IMG/VR virus record: IMGVR_UViG_3300020215_000367
Coordinates: 1-23,777 of that record
DNA: 23,777 bases
Direction: 5' to 3' (one strand)
From: a virus
Of this stretch, positions 2,651 to 13,474 are shown piece by piece. Position 1 is the stretch's first letter. Each line of letters opens with the position of its first letter. Both the position numbers and the translations under genes were made by a program. Under the pieces are notes generated by a model. The model did no database searches and was not told the origin of the DNA. It saw only the letters and a program-made list of their open reading frames with translations.

Positions 2651-4042
2651 ATGAAAATCGAGATGAATGGAAAGGAATACACCCCGAATGAGCTCGTCGC
2701 GACGTTGGAAGCGACTTCCGGTGTGGACGCGCCTGCGCCTGCGCCTGATCGATCTGCGGATTCGATGGCTTCTGTGGAGGATTCGCCGTCGGCAGTCACG
2801 TTTCAGCCTACTGCCGGACAGCAAGCCGCCGCCGACGCCGTAGCGGCGCTGATGAGGCGCCCCGGGCCGCAGCTTGCGACGATCGTGGGCTATGCCGGCG
2901 TCGGGAAAACCACGATGCTGCGCATTTTCGGCGAGCAGTATCGCAGCCCGCGCGTAATCACGCCGACGGGCAAGGCCGCGCTCCGCGTGACTCAAGCGTC
3001 GGGATTGCCGGCGAGCACGGTTCACCGCTGGATCTACAAGCCCGAAGTTGATCCGAAGTCGGGCAAGCTGAAGTTTTCGAAGCGGCTCACGGATTTGGAG
3101 CTGCCGCCGTCGAAACTGGTGCTGATTGACGAAGCGTCGATGATCAGCGCCGACATTTGGGCCGATATCTGGCGCGTGGCGCAGGCTTACGATCTCAAGG
3201 TTGTCGCGATCGGCGACGGTTTCCAGCTTCCGCCCGTCCAGGAAAAGAACGCGCCGGCTTTTTCGCTGCTCGATCCGGCGCTGGTGCAAAAACTCAGCGG
3301 CGTGCGCGTCGAGCTCACAGAGGTTTTGCGTCAGGCGATGGATTCGCCTGTGGTGCGCGCGTCGATGCGGCTGCGCGAAGGCATGGGCGTTCGGGCGCTC
3401 GCCGAGCTGCCGCGAATCGAGCGCGACAATCTTGGGGCTATGGCGCTCGCGGCGTTCCGTGCCGGCGGCGTCATTATCAGCAACACGAACGACACGCGGT
3501 TTCGCGTAAATTATGCAATGCGCGATGCGCTTCACCCGGGGCAGTATGGGCCGCAGCCGGGCGAACCGCTGTTGATTTTGCGGAACAATTACGAATTCGG
3601 CGCCTACAACGGCGAACAACTTACGTTCGAAGGCTGGACCGTGCCGCCCGATCAGCCGATGCACGTTCACGATCGCTACACGAATGCCGAAGCTGATGTG
3701 TACTTCGGCGAGGCGAAGATCGACGGCCGAGCCGCAATTATCGCTATCGAGCAATTGCACGGCAGCACGAAAGACATCGGCGGCTACGCGCTGGCGACGG
3801 CCGGCGAGCTGTGGGCGCGGCAGCACGGATGTTACACCGAAGATGATTGCCCGACGCCGTTCGTGGAAGCGAATTTCGGCTACTGCTACACCGCGCACAA
3901 GTCGCAAGGCTCCGAATGGCCGTGCGCACTGGTCATGGTCGAGCCGCGGGTTAGGCTTGATGAGGAAGACGGCCGACGCTGGGCCTACACTGCAATCACG
4001 CGCGCGAAAACGTCGGCGGCGATCTTTTACGGGAGGATTTGA
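2651..4042 (+). CDS. SF1 DNA helicase, Dda/RecD/Pif1-like
   Basis: A 463-aa ATP-dependent helicase of superfamily 1B. After an acidic, Pro/Ala-rich N-terminus (about 1-50), motif I (Walker A) is GYAGVGKTT with K86; motif Ia is TPTGKAAL; motif II (Walker B) is LIDEAS with D160 and E161; motif III is IGDGFQLPP; the UvrD-like C-terminal motif is TAHKSQGSEW; motif VI is YTAITRAK with R451. The start ATG follows AAGGAA-type sequence at 2639-2644 with good spacing. It lies 22 nt downstream of the polymerase gene, so it probably unwinds DNA ahead of that polymerase, as Dda-like helicases do in other phages. Polarity (5'-3') is inferred from the family. Confidence 0.93.
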   Translation: MKIEMNGKEYTPNELVATLEATSGVDAPAPAPDRSADSMASVEDSPSAVTFQPTAGQQAAADAVAALMRRPGPQLATIVGYAGVGKTTMLRIFGEQYRSPRVITPTGKAALRVTQASGLPASTVHRWIYKPEVDPKSGKLKFSKRLTDLELPPSKLVLIDEASMISADIWADIWRVAQAYDLKVVAIGDGFQLPPVQEKNAPAFSLLDPALVQKLSGVRVELTEVLRQAMDSPVVRASMRLREGMGVRALAELPRIERDNLGAMALAAFRAGGVIISNTNDTRFRVNYAMRDALHPGQYGPQPGEPLLILRNNYEFGAYNGEQLTFEGWTVPPDQPMHVHDRYTNAEADVYFGEAKIDGRAAIIAIEQLHGSTKDIGGYALATAGELWARQHGCYTEDDCPTPFVEANFGYCYTAHKSQGSEWPCALVMVEPRVRLDEEDGRRWAYTAITRAKTSAAIFYGRI

Positions 4043-4044
4043 AA

Positions 4045-4371
4045 ATGGCGCAAGATACACACCCCGGGGCGCCCGCCGAGAGGAAGAAGCTGCGGGTGCA
4101 GGCGCATCGGTACACCGGAGCGCTTCATCTCGGCGAGGGCGTCTGCGCTGCCGTCGTTGGCGAGGAGGGCCAGCGTGGCAACCGTGGTCGCGGGCCGCGG
4201 GTGTACACGCTCTGCGGGCGGCCGGCGACGTACGGCGCTCAGTGCTGGGGCCACGCGCCGGCAGGATACGCGTTCCGCGCTCTGCAAGGGCTGGCGGACT
4301 TCATCGAGTTCGTCTCGCTCGACTACTTCCGCCGCCACGGTGTCACACCCGGCGGGGTGAAGCCGCTATGA
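4045..4371 (+). CDS. Hypothetical protein, 108 aa
   Basis: I chose ATG 4045 because GGGAGG at 4031-4036 sits 8 nt upstream; an in-frame TTG at 4039 would be only 2 nt from that site. The product is basic at its N-terminus, carries CGRP and CWGH around residues 60-70, and has an aromatic stretch (FIEFVSLDYF) near the end. Two Cys plus His could bind metal, but I see no family. Codon use is unlike the helicase upstream: all five Glu codons are GAG and Gly/Arg codons include GGG and CGG. Its stop overlaps the next gene's ATG (ATGA). It may have arrived with that gene. Confidence 0.72.
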   Translation: MAQDTHPGAPAERKKLRVQAHRYTGALHLGEGVCAAVVGEEGQRGNRGRGPRVYTLCGRPATYGAQCWGHAPAGYAFRALQGLADFIEFVSLDYFRRHGVTPGGVKPL

Positions 4372-5324: not shown

Positions 5325-5428
5325 ATTTTTCGCTTGCTCCCGTTCCCGTGCGAATGTTATTCGTCTCACTAAGAGGGCTAAATCACAGGGGTTAGCCCTG
5401 ACAAAACAACGGGAGCAAGGCGAAAAAT
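5325..5428 (+). promoter_or_regulatory. Structured 5' leader: three-way junction that sequesters a ribosome-binding site
   Basis: A left arm at 5325-5344 (ATTTTTCGCTTGCTCCCGTT) pairs with 5408-5428 over 20 base pairs with one bulged G (5419 or 5420). Inside lie two perfect hairpins: CGAAT-GTT-ATTCG at 5351-5363, and AGGGCTAA (5374-5381) with TTAGCCCT (5392-5399) around a 10-nt loop. The right arm contains GGGAG (5411-5415), AAGG (5417-5420) and the first two bases of the ATG at 5427, so closing the stem would hide the start of the downstream gene. This looks like a cis-acting translational switch or a protein-binding RNA. At DNA level the same bases are a roughly 100-bp interrupted palindrome that could also be an operator or origin. 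Folding is seen in the sequence; function is inferred. Confidence 0.7.
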
Positions 5429-5798
5429 GAAAATGAGATCAAGGCCGTTGCCGTCGTGCAAGCTTCGCGGGCGGGCGTTCATACCTACATATGCGCAAGT
5501 CGCCGCCGCGGTTGGCCGCTACTTTGTTCGAGTCGCCGACCCATTCGAAACGCTGCGCGTTAAGACGGTAGGTGAAGCCGTTGCGGTCGCGCTGGGCGCG
5601 AGATGGTCGCCGACGGTAGGTCAAATGGTGCGGCGGGCGCTGCTCGAAATGGGCTGCGAGCTCGTCACGTTCGAGCATAAGCACCTAGTCAAAAACATCC
5701 GAGCGCGGCACCACGATCGCGCCGACGCCGTGGCGCTCGCGATGAAGCTGCGCGGGCGCAAGAACGCGCCGAAGGACGCGGCCCGTGTCGAGGGCTAG
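5427..5798 (+). CDS. Hypothetical protein, 123 aa, behind a structured leader
   Basis: ATG 5427 follows AAGG with 6-nt spacing; a second in-frame ATG lies at 5433. The product is basic. It contains VGEAVAVALGARWSPTVGQMVRRALLEMGCE in its middle (positions about 49-80), which reads like helix-turn-helix material, followed by a Lys/His/Arg-rich end. Both the ribosome-binding site and the start are inside the long stem of the leader, so expression is probably controlled post-transcriptionally, perhaps by the protein itself if it binds nucleic acid. That is inference. The next gene begins 14 nt before this one ends. I do not recognise the family. Confidence 0.75.
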   Translation: MKMRSRPLPSCKLRGRAFIPTYAQVAAAVGRYFVRVADPFETLRVKTVGEAVAVALGARWSPTVGQMVRRALLEMGCELVTFEHKHLVKNIRARHHDRADAVALAMKLRGRKNAPKDAARVEG

Positions 5799-6087
5799 CC
5801 GCGTCGCCGCGCTCATGCGTGCGTGGCAGAAGTCGTTACGCGAAGCCGATCGATTCTGGGATCGCATCGTCGAAGAAATCGCAGCAAGCCGGCGTGCCGG
5901 CGATCTGCCGGCCGTCATCGCGCGCGATCTCGGCTTGCCGCGCTCGCTAGTGCGCGAAGCGCTGCGCGCGGGAGGTGAACGCGGGTTACTGGAACCGCGG
6001 CCCGTCGAGCGTTGCCCCTGCGGTCTGATTCACGATCTGTGCGAGCTCGGCGCTCGCGTCGCCGCACGTCGGAGGGCGGTCGCGTGA
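5785..6087 (+). CDS. HTH protein with possible C-terminal zinc knuckle, 100 aa
   Basis: GTG 5785 was chosen because GAAGGA (5771-5776) lies 8 nt upstream; an in-frame ATG exists at 5815. Residues about 40-70 (DLPAVIARDLGLPRSLVREAL and following) look like a helix-turn-helix with the wing-like sequence GERGLLE. C77, C79, H83 and C86 in CPCGLIHDLC could bind a metal ion. A small DNA-binding regulator is the likeliest role, and the nearby dyads at 5304-5427 are plausible targets. It overlaps the previous gene by 14 nt and its TGA overlaps the next GTG. Confidence 0.72.
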   Translation: MSRASRVAALMRAWQKSLREADRFWDRIVEEIAASRRAGDLPAVIARDLGLPRSLVREALRAGGERGLLEPRPVERCPCGLIHDLCELGARVAARRRAVA

Positions 6088-6950
6088 CGGGTCGCTCGTT
6101 TGAAGCGCTGCGGCGATACTGGTACCGGAAGGCGGGCGTTGAGGATATCGAGCCGGGCGATCTGCTAATCCACGAACGCGGATCACGCGCTGCCGACGCG
6201 CAAGATATTGCATTTGCTGGCGAAATGGCCGATGCCGCGCGGGATATCTTGCGTCATCCGGCGCTTACCCCGCGGCAGCGTGCGATATGGCGGCTGCACG
6301 TCCAAGATTCCACATACGCCGAAATCGCTAAAAAAGTAGGTTGCAGTTTTCGCGATGTTTCTGCTAGCCTTGACGCGGTTCAGGCGTTAATGCTGAAACC
6401 GACGATGGAGGAACAGACGATGGGAAAGCGAAAGGGACCCGGCCGCCCGCCGACGATGCATGTCGCTGCGGCCGACGGAATGACCGTGTGTGGGCGCAAG
6501 GCAGTTAAGGGCCGTCTGACGACGCCCGACAAGTCGAATTGCAAGGACGGATGCGCGACGGGCAACGCTGCCGCGCGCCCGGCGAAGTCGGCGAGGGCGG
6601 CGAAGCCGCCGCGAAACAAGCCGGCCGCGACGGAGGCGCCGCCCGCGCCCATGTTCGTAATTCCGCCGGAGGCGCCGGAGCTGCCGGCGTTCGTGGATCT
6701 CGAAACGTCGGTGGATCTTGCCGGCATGAACGCGCATCGCAAGATCGCCGAAATCTCGCTCAAGCCGGCGCTGACGTCCAACGACGTCGAGGATAACAAG
6801 CGCGCGTGCGATACGCTGCTCGCGATCCGCGCCTCCGAAATGAAGGTGCTGCGCGACCCGCGACGTACGGCGCCGGCCGATGACGCCGAGGTTCAGGCGA
6901 AGATCGACGCTGCGGCGAAGCCCGCCGCGCCGGCCGAGACGCCGCAGTGA
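6084..6950 (+). CDS. HTH (sigma region 4-like) protein fused to a GPGRPP basic region; possible small terminase
   Basis: GTG 6084 has GGAGGG (6071-6076) 7 nt upstream and a GTGA overlap. The 288-aa product has two parts. Residues about 60-104 (LTPRQRAIWRLHVQDSTYAEIA and on) resemble the helix-turn-helix of sigma region 4 or LuxR-type proteins. Residues 113-288 start with MGKRKGPGRPPT, an AT-hook-like basic patch, followed by an Ala/Pro-rich linker (about 165-195) and a charged helical end. Its position a few small genes before the large terminase makes a small-terminase role possible for one or both parts. A strong internal start at 6420 could make the second part separately. No database match could be tested. 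Confidence 0.72.
   Translation: MTGRSFEALRRYWYRKAGVEDIEPGDLLIHERGSRAADAQDIAFAGEMADAARDILRHPALTPRQRAIWRLHVQDSTYAEIAKKVGCSFRDVSASLDAVQALMLKPTMEEQTMGKRKGPGRPPTMHVAAADGMTVCGRKAVKGRLTTPDKSNCKDGCATGNAAARPAKSARAAKPPRNKPAATEAPPAPMFVIPPEAPELPAFVDLETSVDLAGMNAHRKIAEISLKPALTSNDVEDNKRACDTLLAIRASEMKVLRDPRRTAPADDAEVQAKIDAAAKPAAPAETPQ
6407..6422 (+). promoter_or_regulatory. Strong internal ribosome-binding site and start
   Basis: GGAGGAA (6407-6413) is followed after 6 nt by ATG at 6420-6422, in frame with the surrounding 288-aa gene. Translation from here would give a 176-aa protein beginning MGKRKGPGRPPT. This is one of the best ribosome-binding sites in the window, better than that of many outer genes, so a nested second product is plausible. 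Confidence 0.55.
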
Positions 6951-8284: not shown

Positions 8285-8493
8285 TCGCGGCGGTTGTGCT
8301 CCGGTTCCTACTCGATACGGCGCAGCCGCCGGCACCGCTCGATCTGACGTTCTACCGCGTGCCGGCACTGTGCGCGTACCCTGACGGACGAACGCGGCGC
8401 CGGCACGCGCCGTGCTGGGAAGGGTTCGAGATTCGCGTCGAGCCGCCGCCGGTTTTTGCATGCTGTCGCGATATTCACGCGCCGCCGCGGTAG
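8281..8493 (+). CDS. Hypothetical protein, 70 aa
   Basis: ATG 8281 overlaps the previous stop (ATGA). The first ten residues are hydrophobic (MIAAVVLRFLL) and the rest is Pro/Arg/Cys-rich, with cysteines near C31, C45, C61 and C62. The last 34 nt overlap the chosen start of the large terminase, which may rely on coupling with this gene. No function is recognised. Confidence 0.6.
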   Translation: MIAAVVLRFLLDTAQPPAPLDLTFYRVPALCAYPDGRTRRRHAPCWEGFEIRVEPPPVFACCRDIHAPPR

Positions 8494-10025
8494 ACCAGAC
8501 CACACGGCGCGCAGCCTGGAATCCTGACGCTATCCTTTTGCCGCCGCAGCGGGCGGTACGCGACGATCCCGCGCGCCTGCGGCTCGTGGATGGGCCGCGC
8601 CGTATCGGCAAATCGAAACTCGCGGCGGTTCTCTTACTCGACGAAGCGCTAACCACGCCGCGTGCGAAATGCCTGTTTCTTGCGCTCACGCGGGAAGACG
8701 CGCAGGACATCGTTTGGCAGGAGCTGTTAGAGCTCAACGAAGATTATGCGCTAGGCGGCGTTCCGAACGAACAGAAATTAGAGCTCGTCTTCCCGAACCG
8801 CTCGCGCGTGCGCGTCGGCGGCGCGAAAGACCGGCAGCAAGCCGAGCGGCGCCGCGGGCGCTTCTATCAGCTCGTCATCATCGACGAATGCCAGACGTTC
8901 CCGAGTCATCTTTACGATCTGGTTGAGTCGATTCTAAAGCCGTCGCTGCTCGGCAAGGGTCGGCGCGGGCGGATTATCCTCATGGGAACGCCCGCCGAGG
9001 TTCCCGGCGTCGGCTATTGGGAAGAAAAGGTAGCCGATCCGAAATGGTCGAAGCATACCTGGACGATTTACGATAACACTTGGCTCGGCACGCGCGAGGA
9101 AATCGACGAATTCTTGCGCGATATGGCCGAATCCATGGGCGGCGAAGATGACCCGCGGTTTCAGCGCGAATACTTGGGGCGCCGCGTGCCGCCGCGGAAC
9201 ATGGATCGGCCGTACATTTACGACGCCACGAAACAGCATTTCACGGCGCCGATTCTCGAAAGCGTCATCACAAAGGAATTGCGGTTCCGTCGCTGGGCGC
9301 TGCCGTGGGCGGGAATGTGGTATTTCGTTAAGGGAATCGATCTCGGCGACTCGGCATGTTCGGCGATTGCCGTGTGGGGAACCTCTGACGCGCGACCGGG
9401 CAAGATCGTTCTAGTCGAGGAATTCCTAGCGCCGCGCATGCTGCCTGATACGCTGTGGGCCAAAATCGTCGAGCGGCGCGCATTCTACGGCGCCGGTCCG
9501 CTCGACGCGGAACGCTTTGGCGTCGTTGGCGCGCAGTCTGCCGGTGTGCTCGAAATGGCAGTAGACGAAGGCGCGCTAGGCTCCATGATCGCCGAGCAAT
9601 GGCGCCAGCCGCCTTACGCACTGCCGGTCACGGCCGCAGAGAAGACCGCGATCGAGGTTCAAGCGGATTTCCTTTCGGCTGCGATGAACCGCGGCGACGT
9701 GCTGATCTCGAAATTCTCCGTCATGGCGGCGGATATGGCCGTCGCGCGCTGGGATGAAAAGAAACTGCGCGAGCAGCACAAGCGGGTCGAAGCGAAAACG
9801 CCGCACAGCGATATCATTCCCGCCGGCCGGTATGGGTTCAAGAAAATCCACGCTATCGCGACGTCGCTGCGCGCGCCGACGGCGGCGCCTACTGTCGAGC
9901 AGAAAGAGTCAACGGAGCTCGAACGCGAGCGGCGCGAAGGCGCGGAGAAAGCACGCCGCCTGATGGAAGGGCGGCCCGTCATCGGCGCGAGCCGGCGCGA
10001 AGCCGTAGACCGCTGGCGACGGTAA
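8460..10025 (+). CDS. terL: Terminase large subunit
   Basis: A 521-aa DNA-packaging motor. The ATPase half has an Arg-rich Walker A, GPRRIGKS (G45-S52), and Walker B LVIIDECQ with D142 and catalytic E143; LMGTP resembles the coupling motif. The nuclease half has KGIDLGDSA with D294 as the first metal ligand, and a later HSDIIPAGRYGFKK region consistent with the last acidic motif. It cuts concatemeric DNA and drives it into the procapsid through the portal. I chose ATG 8460; neither this site nor the in-frame GTG 8412 has a clear Shine-Dalgarno, so coupling with the overlapping 8281-8493 gene is likely. The C-terminus is highly charged (LERERREGAEKARRLMEG). Confidence 0.93.
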   Translation: MLSRYSRAAAVDQTTRRAAWNPDAILLPPQRAVRDDPARLRLVDGPRRIGKSKLAAVLLLDEALTTPRAKCLFLALTREDAQDIVWQELLELNEDYALGGVPNEQKLELVFPNRSRVRVGGAKDRQQAERRRGRFYQLVIIDECQTFPSHLYDLVESILKPSLLGKGRRGRIILMGTPAEVPGVGYWEEKVADPKWSKHTWTIYDNTWLGTREEIDEFLRDMAESMGGEDDPRFQREYLGRRVPPRNMDRPYIYDATKQHFTAPILESVITKELRFRRWALPWAGMWYFVKGIDLGDSACSAIAVWGTSDARPGKIVLVEEFLAPRMLPDTLWAKIVERRAFYGAGPLDAERFGVVGAQSAGVLEMAVDEGALGSMIAEQWRQPPYALPVTAAEKTAIEVQADFLSAAMNRGDVLISKFSVMAADMAVARWDEKKLREQHKRVEAKTPHSDIIPAGRYGFKKIHAIATSLRAPTAAPTVEQKESTELERERREGAEKARRLMEGRPVIGASRREAVDRWRR

Positions 10026-10034
10026 ATCCCCAAG

Positions 10035-10064
10035 CCGTCAACGGGTTATCCACAATGTTGACGG
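10035..10064. promoter_or_regulatory. 8-bp dyad around a DnaA box, overlapping a -35 element
   Basis: CCGTCAAC (10035-10042) and GTTGACGG (10057-10064) are perfect inverted copies separated by 14 bp. The right arm contains the -35 hexamer TTGACG of the promoter below, the classic position for an operator. The centre of the spacer is a perfect DnaA box. Confidence 0.7.
10046..10054 (+). promoter_or_regulatory. Perfect DnaA box (TTATCCACA)
   Basis: TTATCCACA equals the high-affinity DnaA box consensus of Proteobacteria. It lies 3 nt upstream of the -35 hexamer at 10058 and in the middle of the 8-bp dyad. Bound DnaA would occupy the promoter's upstream edge, so it could activate or repress it; a single box is unlikely to be a whole origin. 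Confidence 0.65.
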
Positions 10065-10087
10065 TGCGCCGCATCGTGTGCTAACGT
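10058..10087 (+). promoter_or_regulatory. Sigma70-like promoter for a short transcript
   Basis: The -35 TTGACG (5 of 6) is followed by a -10 region GTGCTAACGT; the best reading is TAACGT at 10082-10087 with an 18-nt spacer, of the TAnnnT type. The same TTGACGG(T/C)GCGCC to GTGCTA layout recurs at 13111-13141. Transcription would start near 10094. Confidence 0.6.
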
Positions 10088-10096
10088 CGCTTCTAG

Positions 10097-10117
10097 AAAG
10101 GAAGGTGCGTCATGTAA
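10097..10117 (+). promoter_or_regulatory. Shine-Dalgarno plus start-stop (ATG-TAA)
   Basis: AAAGGAAGG, 6-nt spacer, ATG, TAA. Ribosomes loading here would terminate after one codon, which in known start-stop cases slows or parks ribosomes. Whether that happens here is unknown. Confidence 0.5.
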
Positions 10118-10159
10118 CCGCAACCTCGAACAAACTTCCCGCAGCAATTAACACGTAAA

Positions 10160-10197
10160 AGAGGGCCGGCGCCGAAAGGGTCGGCCCTCTGCTTTTT
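10160..10197 (+). terminator. Strong intrinsic (rho-independent) terminator
   Basis: AGAGGGCCG (10160-10168) pairs perfectly with CGGCCCTCT (10182-10190); a G-U and a C-G pair extend the stem to 11 pairs around a 9-nt loop, followed by GCTTTTTC. This is the clearest terminator in the window. It would end both terminase read-through transcription and the short RNA, so the capsid genes may need another promoter or antitermination. Confidence 0.9.
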
Positions 10198-10224
10198 CTG
10201 GTAGTAGCGCGGCATCTTGTAGCC

Positions 10225-10500
10225 GTGGCAATCCTCATTCATGACGCCGATGCGTTGTGCGCGCTGCTAGACGAGCTGCGCGCGCGTGGCGTTTCGGGCG
10301 TCGAGCTGCAATTTAGCGGCGATACCGTCGCGGGAATGAAAATCATCGGCATGCGCCCGCCCGCGCCCGCCGTCGTGCCGGCACGCGAGGAACCGCCGCG
10401 CCCGTCACGGATTCCCGCCGCCGTTCGCGACGAGCTCGAAGCGGAGAACGCCGGCAAGAGTGAAACGAAACTGCCGCCGCCCGGCTTGGGGTATAGATAA
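10225..10500 (+). CDS. Hypothetical protein, 91 aa, upstream of portal
   Basis: GTG 10225 begins VAILIHDADALCALLDELRA; no good Shine-Dalgarno precedes it. The first 45 residues look like a compact alpha/beta unit (helix then GVELQFSGD and GMKIIGMR strands); the rest is Pro-rich and probably disordered. The stop TAA shares its last base with the portal's ATG (TAATG), so the two are likely coupled. Small proteins of this form often precede phage portals, but no role is established here. Confidence 0.72.
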   Translation: MAILIHDADALCALLDELRARGVSGVELQFSGDTVAGMKIIGMRPPAPAVVPAREEPPRPSRIPAAVRDELEAENAGKSETKLPPPGLGYR

Positions 10501-12620
10501 TGGCAAAGAAAGATGACGCCGCGCCCGATCGGAAAACCGTAGTTCTCGACGATACCGTGCCGGCGCACGAGTCGTCAATTTGGTGGACGAAAGGCGAAAA
10601 AGATATAGCGCAGGCGATGATCTTCGTCGCCGACAAGTACGCCGCAGGAATGCAGGATCGGCGCGAGCAGAGCCGGCGCTACGTTCAGGCGCATAAGGGA
10701 CAGCTACTCGCGCACTCCATGATGGGTGCCGCGCTCGCGCGCAGCGAAACCGACGACGTCACTATGTCATGGAACGTCGTGCAAGCGGGCGTCAATACCG
10801 CGCAGTCGGTCGTTACGCGGAATCGCGTGCGGGTCATGCTGCAGACGACGGGCGCGAATTACGAGCTGCAAGAAGCTGCGAAGGACGCTGAGTTGTACAT
10901 CTCGGGCGTCATCGCAGGAAATCGAGTTTACGAGGAACTAGACCCGATTTGGTTTTTCGACGGCGCTTGTCCCGGCTTGGGCGCGCTGCTAGTCGAGCCG
11001 GACAAGGAAGGGAATACGCGCATCAAGCGTGTTATTCCTGATCAGCTCGTCTACAACGAAATCGAATGGATTTCGGGCAAAGGGCGGCAGCTTTTCACTA
11101 TCGAATGGATGTCGAAGTGGGACGCCGTCATGGAGTACGCGACCGACAAGGACGGCAACATTGACGAGGAAAAGGCCGAAGCGATCAACGGCTGCACCGT
11201 CACGCACGAATTCCCGATCCCGGGCGTTCCCGATAAGCATATCACGCTGATTCCGATTTATACCGGTTGGTTCACGTCGAGCCGGCGCAATATGGAGAAG
11301 CCCGACGGCGTGCGCGTCGTCGCGGTTCCCGGCACGACGCCCGGGTGTCTGCTCGATCGGAAGGTATATCGGTGGACGCGGTTCCCGATGGCATTTTTTC
11401 GCGTCGAGCTCGCGCCCGCGGGGCTGTGGGGCGTCGGGCTTGCCGAGCGGCTGATCGGCTTTCAGTACCGAATTAACGAGCTGAACTACTATATCGAGGA
11501 AGCCGCGCGGCTCGGCAGCACGGGCAAGTGGTTTTACGATATCGGCTCGAACGTGAATCCCGCCGACTTGAATAACGAGTATGGCGGCGCGGTTCCGTAC
11601 AGCGGCACAGAGCCGAAATTCGTCAACCTCGACGGGATTCCGCGTGATCTACTCGCCGAGCGCGATACCACCTACAAACAGGCGCTACGCGAAATCGGCC
11701 TTTCGGAATGGACCGTCGCGGGCGTGCAGCCTGACAATATCGAGTCGGGCGAGGGATTACAGCAATTGCGGGAACAGGAGCAAGGGCGTGCTGTGCCGGC
11801 CGGGCAGCAATGGGAAGCGGCACATACCGATCTCGCAGAATGTATCATCATGGCGGGGCTCGACGGTTACGAGCTGAATAAATCGCTCGCCGTCAGCGTG
11901 CATGACACCGATTGGGATTCGATCGAAAAAATCGAATTCGCGTCGATTGCGAAGCTGCTGCAGGACCCGGATACCTGGCAGGTTCGGCCCTATCCGACGA
12001 GCATTCTTCCGGCGTCGCCGACGGGCCGATTCGAAAAGCTGCGCGAATGGCGCAAGGACGGCACGATCGATCAAGCTACGTTCGAAGCGCTCTCCGAGAA
12101 TCCCGATTTGCACAAGGAAGGCTCGCTGATCCTCGCCGGCATCAAGGCCGTGCGCTGGCAGATTCGCCAGATCGTGCGGAAAGGCGTCGAGGGTTACGAG
12201 CCGCCCGATATCGCGATGCCGCTCGAATTCGGAATGCGGCTCGCGCACCAGACGTATCTCAAAGGCCTTCGCGGCGGCATGCCGGAGGAAAAACTGTCGC
12301 TGCTCCTGACCTGGATCGACGACGCGCGCGAGCTCATGAAGGCGCGCAGCGCGGGCGCACGGGCGGGCGCTGCCGAGGTTCCAGGAGCAACGGCGCCGCC
12401 GGCTGTGGCCATCGACCCGGCGACGGGCCAGCCGGTTGCCGCGGGCGCTGCGGCGCAGCCTGGCACGGTGGGCGCGCCGGCCGCGGGCGCTGACCCCATG
12501 GCCGCGCTCGCTGCGGCTGCAGGAGCGCCTGCCGACCCTGCGGCGATGGCAGCGGCCGGCGACGACCCGAACGCGGTTCCTGGCGCAGCCGACGCGCTCG
12601 CAGGCGCCGCAGGATTGTAG
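10500..12620 (+). CDS. Portal protein
   Basis: A 706-aa head-to-tail connector that forms the ring through which DNA passes. The N-terminus is charged. The core has portal-type features: WWTKGEKDIAQA, the SWNVVQAGVNTAQSVV stretch, EELDPIWFFDGACPGLGALLVEP, IKRVIPDQLVYNE, and the long helix YRINELNYYIEEAARLGSTG expected of the portal stem and crown. Its length and place after the terminase suit a podovirus-type portal. The last 90 residues (about 617-706) are an Ala/Gly/Pro-rich low-complexity tail. The ATG overlaps the upstream stop (TAATG). Two perfect GC-rich inverted repeats follow the gene. Confidence 0.88.
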   Translation: MAKKDDAAPDRKTVVLDDTVPAHESSIWWTKGEKDIAQAMIFVADKYAAGMQDRREQSRRYVQAHKGQLLAHSMMGAALARSETDDVTMSWNVVQAGVNTAQSVVTRNRVRVMLQTTGANYELQEAAKDAELYISGVIAGNRVYEELDPIWFFDGACPGLGALLVEPDKEGNTRIKRVIPDQLVYNEIEWISGKGRQLFTIEWMSKWDAVMEYATDKDGNIDEEKAEAINGCTVTHEFPIPGVPDKHITLIPIYTGWFTSSRRNMEKPDGVRVVAVPGTTPGCLLDRKVYRWTRFPMAFFRVELAPAGLWGVGLAERLIGFQYRINELNYYIEEAARLGSTGKWFYDIGSNVNPADLNNEYGGAVPYSGTEPKFVNLDGIPRDLLAERDTTYKQALREIGLSEWTVAGVQPDNIESGEGLQQLREQEQGRAVPAGQQWEAAHTDLAECIIMAGLDGYELNKSLAVSVHDTDWDSIEKIEFASIAKLLQDPDTWQVRPYPTSILPASPTGRFEKLREWRKDGTIDQATFEALSENPDLHKEGSLILAGIKAVRWQIRQIVRKGVEGYEPPDIAMPLEFGMRLAHQTYLKGLRGGMPEEKLSLLLTWIDDARELMKARSAGARAGAAEVPGATAPPAVAIDPATGQPVAAGAAAQPGTVGAPAAGADPMAALAAAAGAPADPAAMAAAGDDPNAVPGAADALAGAAGL

Positions 12621-12847: not shown

Positions 12848-12882
12848 ATCGGAGCGCCATATAATGTAAAGGGCGCTCCGAT
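12848..12882. promoter_or_regulatory. Operator-like dyad enclosing a perfect TATAAT
   Basis: ATCGGAGCGCC (12848-12858) and GGCGCTCCGAT (12872-12882) are perfect 11-bp inverted copies. The 13-bp spacer holds TATAAT (12860-12865) on the + strand. No -35 hexamer lies at the right distance upstream. The arrangement suggests a -10 element covered by a dimeric regulator, or an activator-dependent promoter. As RNA it would also form a hairpin. Confidence 0.55.
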
Positions 12883-13104: not shown

Positions 13105-13110
13105 TTCGTG

Positions 13111-13141
13111 TTGACGGCGCGCCCGTGAGCCGTGCTACACT
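13111..13141 (+). promoter_or_regulatory. Sigma70-like promoter for a leaderless gene
   Basis: TTGACG (13111-13116, 5 of 6) and TACACT (13136-13141, 4 of 6) have a 19-nt spacer, rather long. Six nucleotides later comes ATG 13148, where transcription should start. The sequence resembles the 10058-10087 promoter: TTGACGG(T/C)GCGCC near -35 and GTGCTA at -10. Confidence 0.55.
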
Positions 13142-13147
13142 GCGCGG

Positions 13148-13474
13148 ATGCGCGATGTGTCACAGGATTTGACACTGCTCCGGCTCGATCCCGGCCCGGG
13201 ACCGATGGCCGAAATTCTCGATCGCTGGCGTGAGGAGGACCCGCGCGGCGCGCTTGGCTTTCAGCGCTGGGCCGTGGAAAAGCTTGCGGCGAAGCGCGCG
13301 CACATGACGATCGGCGAAGGCTTGCCGGAGCTGCTACAGCGTGCGGCGAGTAAGTTGCGTCGGTACATCGGATTTTGCGAAAATAGCGCATACGGTGCGC
13401 CGACGATTGCAGATCACGCCGAAGCGCGAAGTTTAATCGGCGCGCTTCGCACCGTTGCGAGTCAGCTCAAGTGA
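13148..13474 (+). CDS. Hypothetical protein, 108 aa
   Basis: ATG 13148 is at the expected transcription start of the preceding promoter and has no Shine-Dalgarno, so translation may be leaderless. The product is largely helical: LTLLRLDPGPGPMAEILDRW, FQRWAVEKLAAKRAHM, LPELLQRAASKLRRYIGF. Its end (ADHAEARSLIGALRTVASQLK) also looks helical. Its stop overlaps the next GTG (GTGA). I recognise no family; a role in head assembly or regulation cannot be judged from sequence. Confidence 0.72.
   Translation: MRDVSQDLTLLRLDPGPGPMAEILDRWREEDPRGALGFQRWAVEKLAAKRAHMTIGEGLPELLQRAASKLRRYIGFCENSAYGAPTIADHAEARSLIGALRTVASQLK

Follow-up and report, generated by a model that had tools for sequence, protein, structure and literature searches.

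The region considered in this work is a short intergenic segment of the virus record IMGVR_UViG_3300020215_000367, in which a consensus DnaA box is found next to a promoter-like sequence. The window that was analyzed comprises the whole of this IMG/VR record, a linear fragment of 23,777 bases whose guanine plus cytosine (GC) content is above 50%. The open reading frames (ORFs) in this window are almost all on the plus strand and tightly spaced, and they include genes for a PolA-type polymerase, a Dda-like helicase, the terminase large subunit, a portal protein and structural proteins. The segment in question (10026–10224, about 200 nt) is among the few real gaps in the window. It is bounded on one side by the gene for the terminase large subunit (8412–10025) and on the other by a small ORF (10225–10500), which is followed by the gene for the portal or head-tail connector (10500–12620), all three being on the plus strand.

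In the first-pass annotation of this DNA, a perfect DnaA box centred in a dyad that overlaps the -35 element of a promoter was described in this gap, and all of these elements were found at the positions claimed. The box, TTATCCACA (10046–10054, plus strand), ends 3 nt 5' of the -35 element and covers approximately positions -48 to -40 relative to the inferred transcription start. The E. coli box of the R1 type, which has a high affinity for DnaA, has this sequence, and a KD of about 1e-9 M is reported for it (PMC5835720). The dyad (10035–10064) consists of perfect 8-bp arms separated by a 14-nt loop, viz. a left arm CCGTCAAC (10035–10042, plus strand), which reads GTTGACGG on the minus strand, and a right arm GTTGACGG (10057–10064, plus strand), and its centre at 10049.5 is offset by half a base from that of the box at 10050. 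The right arm contains the -35 sequence TTGACG (10058–10063), which is followed after an 18-nt spacer ending in TGC by an extended -10 element, TAACGT (10082–10087, plus strand). The transcript predicted from this promoter, with its start deduced from the -10 element, is about 100 nt long (10094–10199, plus strand) and no Rfam family was matched by it. Near its beginning there is a ribosome-binding site, AAAGGAAGG, and after a further 6 nt comes ATG-TAA, in which the initiation codon is succeeded at once by a stop codon (10097–10117, plus strand); a 17-aa frame beginning with GTG overlaps the ATG-TAA and stops just 5' of the terminator. The latter is a strong intrinsic terminator (10160–10199, plus strand), made up of a GC-rich hairpin (about -25 kcal/mol) and a following GCTTTTTCT. 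The box, the dyad, the promoter-like elements, the terminator and their position in the gap are all directly evident in the nucleotide sequence. Promoter scans gave nothing in the 25 nt that separate the terminator from the small ORF, and hence the portal gene is presumably reached by readthrough, either from the promoter at 10058 or from the terminase operon.

The -10 element TAACGT matches the E. coli consensus at three of six positions, and because of its weakness by this standard the promoter at 10058 was missed by a standard promoter scan. Sequences of the class TTGAC[AG] plus TGN-TANNNT are present twice in the window (at 10058 and 13111) as compared to a mean of 0.03 in shuffled sequences, none of the 400 shuffles containing two of them, and on this basis the promoter at 10058 is probably real. 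The two promoters also have in common GTTGACGG[TC]GCGCC...GTGCTA. The second one, TTGACG-19-TGC-TACACT (13111–13148), has its inferred start on the ATG at 13148, and its message may therefore be leaderless.

An exact box is expected 0.033 times in a window of this kind and it was seen once. The looser form TTATNCACA also has a single occurrence, with at least one being present in 17 of 100 shuffles, and the only boxes with a single mismatch lie at distances of 1.1 kb and 10.9 kb from the site. With regard to the dyad, the window contains 32 perfect 8-bp dyads with spacers of 3–20 nt where 23 are expected, such dyads are found in 3–5% of all 75-nt stretches, and the arm GTTGACGG is present without its partner at four other places, including the promoter at 13110. 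The dyad by itself is thus unremarkable and the box is suggestive. The box and the promoter are each beyond ready chance, whereas the dyad and the exact conjunction of box, promoter and centred dyad are post hoc observations.

The placement of a DnaA box directly before a -35 element was also examined in other viral contigs by means of the pattern TTATCCACA-N0-6-TTGAC-N17-18-TANNNT, which allows a shorter spacer than that of the promoter in the window. This pattern was found in at least 120 stretches, and a full scan with the reversed word as a control gave 117. Among the matches listed, an intergenic location was found for 70 of the 121 with TTATCCACA and for 33 of the 117 control matches (odds ratio 3.5, p 4e-6). 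When the remaining promoters of these loci were considered, the 40 nt 5' of the -35 element contained 10 boxes and the other 751 positions contained 37 (p 1e-4); in the control loci no box was present near the -35 elements of other promoters. As the loci were selected for already having one such promoter, this result demonstrates that a subset of phages uses the design repeatedly, and it does not give a rate for phages at large. By these comparisons, the geometry of a box abutting the -35 element appears to recur beyond chance in a subset of mainly AT-rich phages. The promoters concerned in contigs L080, L082, L046, L037, L008, L098, and L071 resemble that of the window in having a TTATCCACA-type box close 5' of the -35 element in an intergenic location, but they are mostly from AT-rich phages, have a near-consensus TATAAT, often occur several times per contig and belong to unrelated phages. 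Terminators 3' of the box-bearing promoters were present in 16 of 121 cases, compared with 8 of 117 in the control, among the matches listed. The dyad was not similarly recurrent: no enrichment of dyads was observed around the box-bearing promoters of other phages, and the exact combination of dyad and box gave seven matches in genomes totalling 257 Gb, as against about four expected by arithmetic, and eight in viral contigs versus three with the reversed box. The possibility that the dyad is part of a shared design was discarded in view of this lack of enrichment in both viral contigs and genomes. A literature search revealed no paper joining DnaA boxes with phage promoters among those searched.

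A number of other observations were made on these contigs. Among the contigs L025–L144, TTATCCACA recurs directly 5' of near-consensus sigma70 promoters in a subset of phages, most of them AT-rich, with several of these promoters per contig in L080, L082, and L046. The genes 3' of them include those for O/DnaD-like initiators (L046, L037, and L040), a primase (L080), HNH endonucleases and terminase. The idea that these promoters serve only replication genes was dropped, because the 43 downstream ORFs also yielded other gene types (endonucleases, terminase, scaffold and FtsK-like proteins) and because the controls had O-like genes as well. In L008 (near position 1000, reverse strand) and L037 (1067–1106), divergent promoters share one DnaA box, and a dyad is present there because two divergent -35 elements flank the shared box. 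A similar divergent arrangement was considered for the window and rejected, as the left arm has no -10 element at 16–18 nt on the minus strand. Another contig from a phage with 67% GC (L071:4775–4900) has a DnaA box and a promoter of the TTGACA-17-TGC-TAAGAT type, with a very strong terminator located about 65 nt 3' of it, a layout that resembles that in the window, and this terminator may be for a convergent gene.

Based upon these results, we tentatively prefer the interpretation that the terminase-portal gap contains a host-sigma70 promoter which is possibly modulated by DnaA through the abutting box. DnaA is known to activate or repress cellular promoters such as those of E. coli nrdAB and dnaA, with the level of DnaA setting the direction of the effect (PMC8203912). 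Like the nrdAB and dnaA promoters, the site has a consensus box inside the promoter region; however, these two are proven cases with several boxes, including some specific for ATP-DnaA, whereas the site has one phage-borne box with a putative role. For phage lambda, the activation of pR/ori-lambda is described as DnaA-dependent, as far as can be gathered from PMC3985674 and the titles cited therein. The stimulation or binding of a phage promoter region by host DnaA in lambda pR/ori-lambda and pO is similar to the role proposed here, but at the present site the box abuts the -35 element and lies beside packaging genes. The site is a possible addition to a known class of box-bearing promoters. 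A phage promoter sensing DnaA had been considered unusual in the first-pass annotation. The promoter and the geometry of the box relative to the -35 element hold up and the sensing is possible, although such a promoter is less unusual than was thought in view of lambda pR/ori-lambda and the recurrence of box-abutting promoters in a subset of phages.

DnaA bound at about -48 to -40 would be placed against region 4 of sigma and the C-terminal domains of the alpha subunits of RNA polymerase. In the proposed mechanism, the promoter at 10058 would fire with the host sigma70, host DnaA would bind to TTATCCACA, and when bound at this location it would alter the output of the promoter. The likelier sign of this effect would be repression at high DnaA, with DnaA hindering the access of sigma and RNA polymerase to the -35 element, and by analogy with nrdAB a stabilization of the polymerase at low DnaA would also be possible. 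Most of the leader RNA of about 100 nt would end at the terminator and the remainder would read into the small ORF and portal gene; a second regulator may use the dyad as its operator, or the dyad may be incidental. If DnaA does act here, the host replication initiator would tune a promoter in the packaging region of a phage, a link known mainly from the control of lambda replication. The wider pattern, in which a box abuts the -35 element before various genes in a subset of phages, is of more value than the single site.

Several observations weigh against a role for DnaA at this site. The box is judged by the E. coli consensus and it may not match the specificity of the host DnaA. In contigs with more than 50% GC, the class to which the window belongs, no enrichment was observed, the numbers of intergenic and coding matches being four and two versus four and eight for the control among the matches listed, and it may simply be that intergenic DNA is richer in boxes as well as in promoters. 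The putative promoter at 13111 has no box and would work without one, and the shortness of the transcript from the 10058 promoter may make regulation of the portal gene moot. Additionally, the terminase-portal gaps of two close relatives, L011 (79% identity in capsid, 71% in terminase and 62% in portal) and L012 (68, 56, and 52%, respectively), contain no box, dyad, promoter or terminator of this kind and no comparable promoter-terminator unit. These gaps are 262 nt long in L011 and 868 nt in L012; no TTGAC was found in them, and with up to two mismatches allowed for the box only a single GTATCCCCA was detected. As the whole unit is lacking in the gap of both close relatives, selection on the site is unsupported, and because the promoter is also absent there, the absence of the box is uninformative concerning its conservation. 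In L012 the gap also contains minus-strand ORFs; this location is therefore a variable one and seems to be a spot for insertions. Homology searches of phages and plasmids with the 200-nt cassette gave only pieces at chance level, no further relatives were found via the portal in viral contigs or via the capsid in genome contigs, and terminase searches beyond L012 yielded distant relatives only.

Modulation by DnaA is nearly tied with the almost equally probable alternative that the gap, which is variable, holds a promoter and terminator of the usual phage kind, the 9-mer box and the 8-bp dyad having arisen by chance. The frequency of 8-bp dyads in the window, the near-chance numbers of the dyad-plus-box combination, the lack of conservation in L011 and L012 and the choice of the site by eye out of many possible motifs are all in accordance with this alternative, whereas the rarity of an exact box next to a promoter in any one window and the box-to-promoter geometry that exceeds chance in other phages are not.

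It is unlikely that the dyad is the working element, i.e., an operator that covers the -35 and serves a dimeric regulator of the phage or host, with the box being incidental. The perfect arms cover the -35 element and are placed 22 bp (about two helical turns) apart on the same helical face, and upstream helix-turn-helix (HTH)-like candidates are encoded at 6084–6950 (weak match to sigma-70 region 4/GerE) and 5785–6087 (weak match to a regulator), all of these matches being below curated cut-offs. However, the partnerless copies of GTTGACGG, one of them at the 13110 promoter, speak against such an operator, as do the 14-bp loop, which is wide for a small HTH dimer, and the lack of dyad enrichment around box-bearing promoters in other phages.

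A gate such as that of lambda pR'-tR', where a promoter, a short leader and a strong terminator precede the structural genes (PMC4604602), is improbable here. In this case, a constitutive promoter would be stopped after about 100 nt until a phage antiterminator lets transcription proceed into the portal and later genes. The site has the same order of promoter, leader and intrinsic terminator directly 5' of the structural genes, whose late role is suggested by gene order, and the lack of a visible promoter in the 25 nt before the small ORF is also consistent with a gate. However, unlike pR'-tR', the site is in a terminase-portal position, no Q-like antiterminator was found among the families matched in the window, a linear fragment, and no -10-like pause element is present in the first transcribed bases (10094–10110), the sequence TAGAAAGGAAGGTGCG after the inferred start containing no TANNNT; the unit is also absent from L011 and L012, and plain partial readthrough would suffice. 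We regard as similarly doubtful the most elaborate proposal, according to which DnaA and a dimeric phage regulator would compete for the -35 dyad and so decide between the attenuated leader and readthrough into the portal gene, the phage would read the replication state of its host via one DnaA molecule, and a box at the -35 would represent a widespread type of control element, so far undescribed, in a subset of phages. Lastly, the suggestions that the site is a DnaA-dependent replication start or titrates DnaA are very improbable and were set aside, since apart from the one perfect box there is neither a second exact box nor a change in GC skew, which is positive across the region, and the site, lying between packaging and structural genes of a phage that encodes its own PolA-type polymerase and helicase, has no adjacent replication genes, no AT-rich stretch of the kind that accompanies box clusters (and often a skew change) in origins, and, at one box per 23.8 kb, none of the closely spaced boxes of a datA-like locus.

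Some additional features of the window and its relatives are of interest. The small ORF has counterparts at the same place in L011 (77 aa) and L012 (75 aa), and the gap of L012 contains minus-strand ORFs at 3773–3997 and 4046–4357, one of which is lipoprotein-like. In the gap after the portal gene (12848–12882), there is an 11-bp dyad, ATCGGAGCGCC / GGCGCTCCGAT, with TATAAT (12860–12865) in its loop, which is possibly an operator over a promoter. A long inverted repeat, TTTTTCGCTTGCTCCCGTT / AACGGGAGCAAGGCGAAAAA, surrounds a smaller GGGCTAA/TTAGCCC repeat at 5325–5427, just 5' of the ORF at 5427, and it is possibly a structured leader. Further, the ORF at 210–1286 encodes a uracil-DNA glycosylase domain fused to a DNA polymerase A 3'-5' exonuclease domain, and it is adjoined by a separate ORF for the PolA polymerase (1279–2628).
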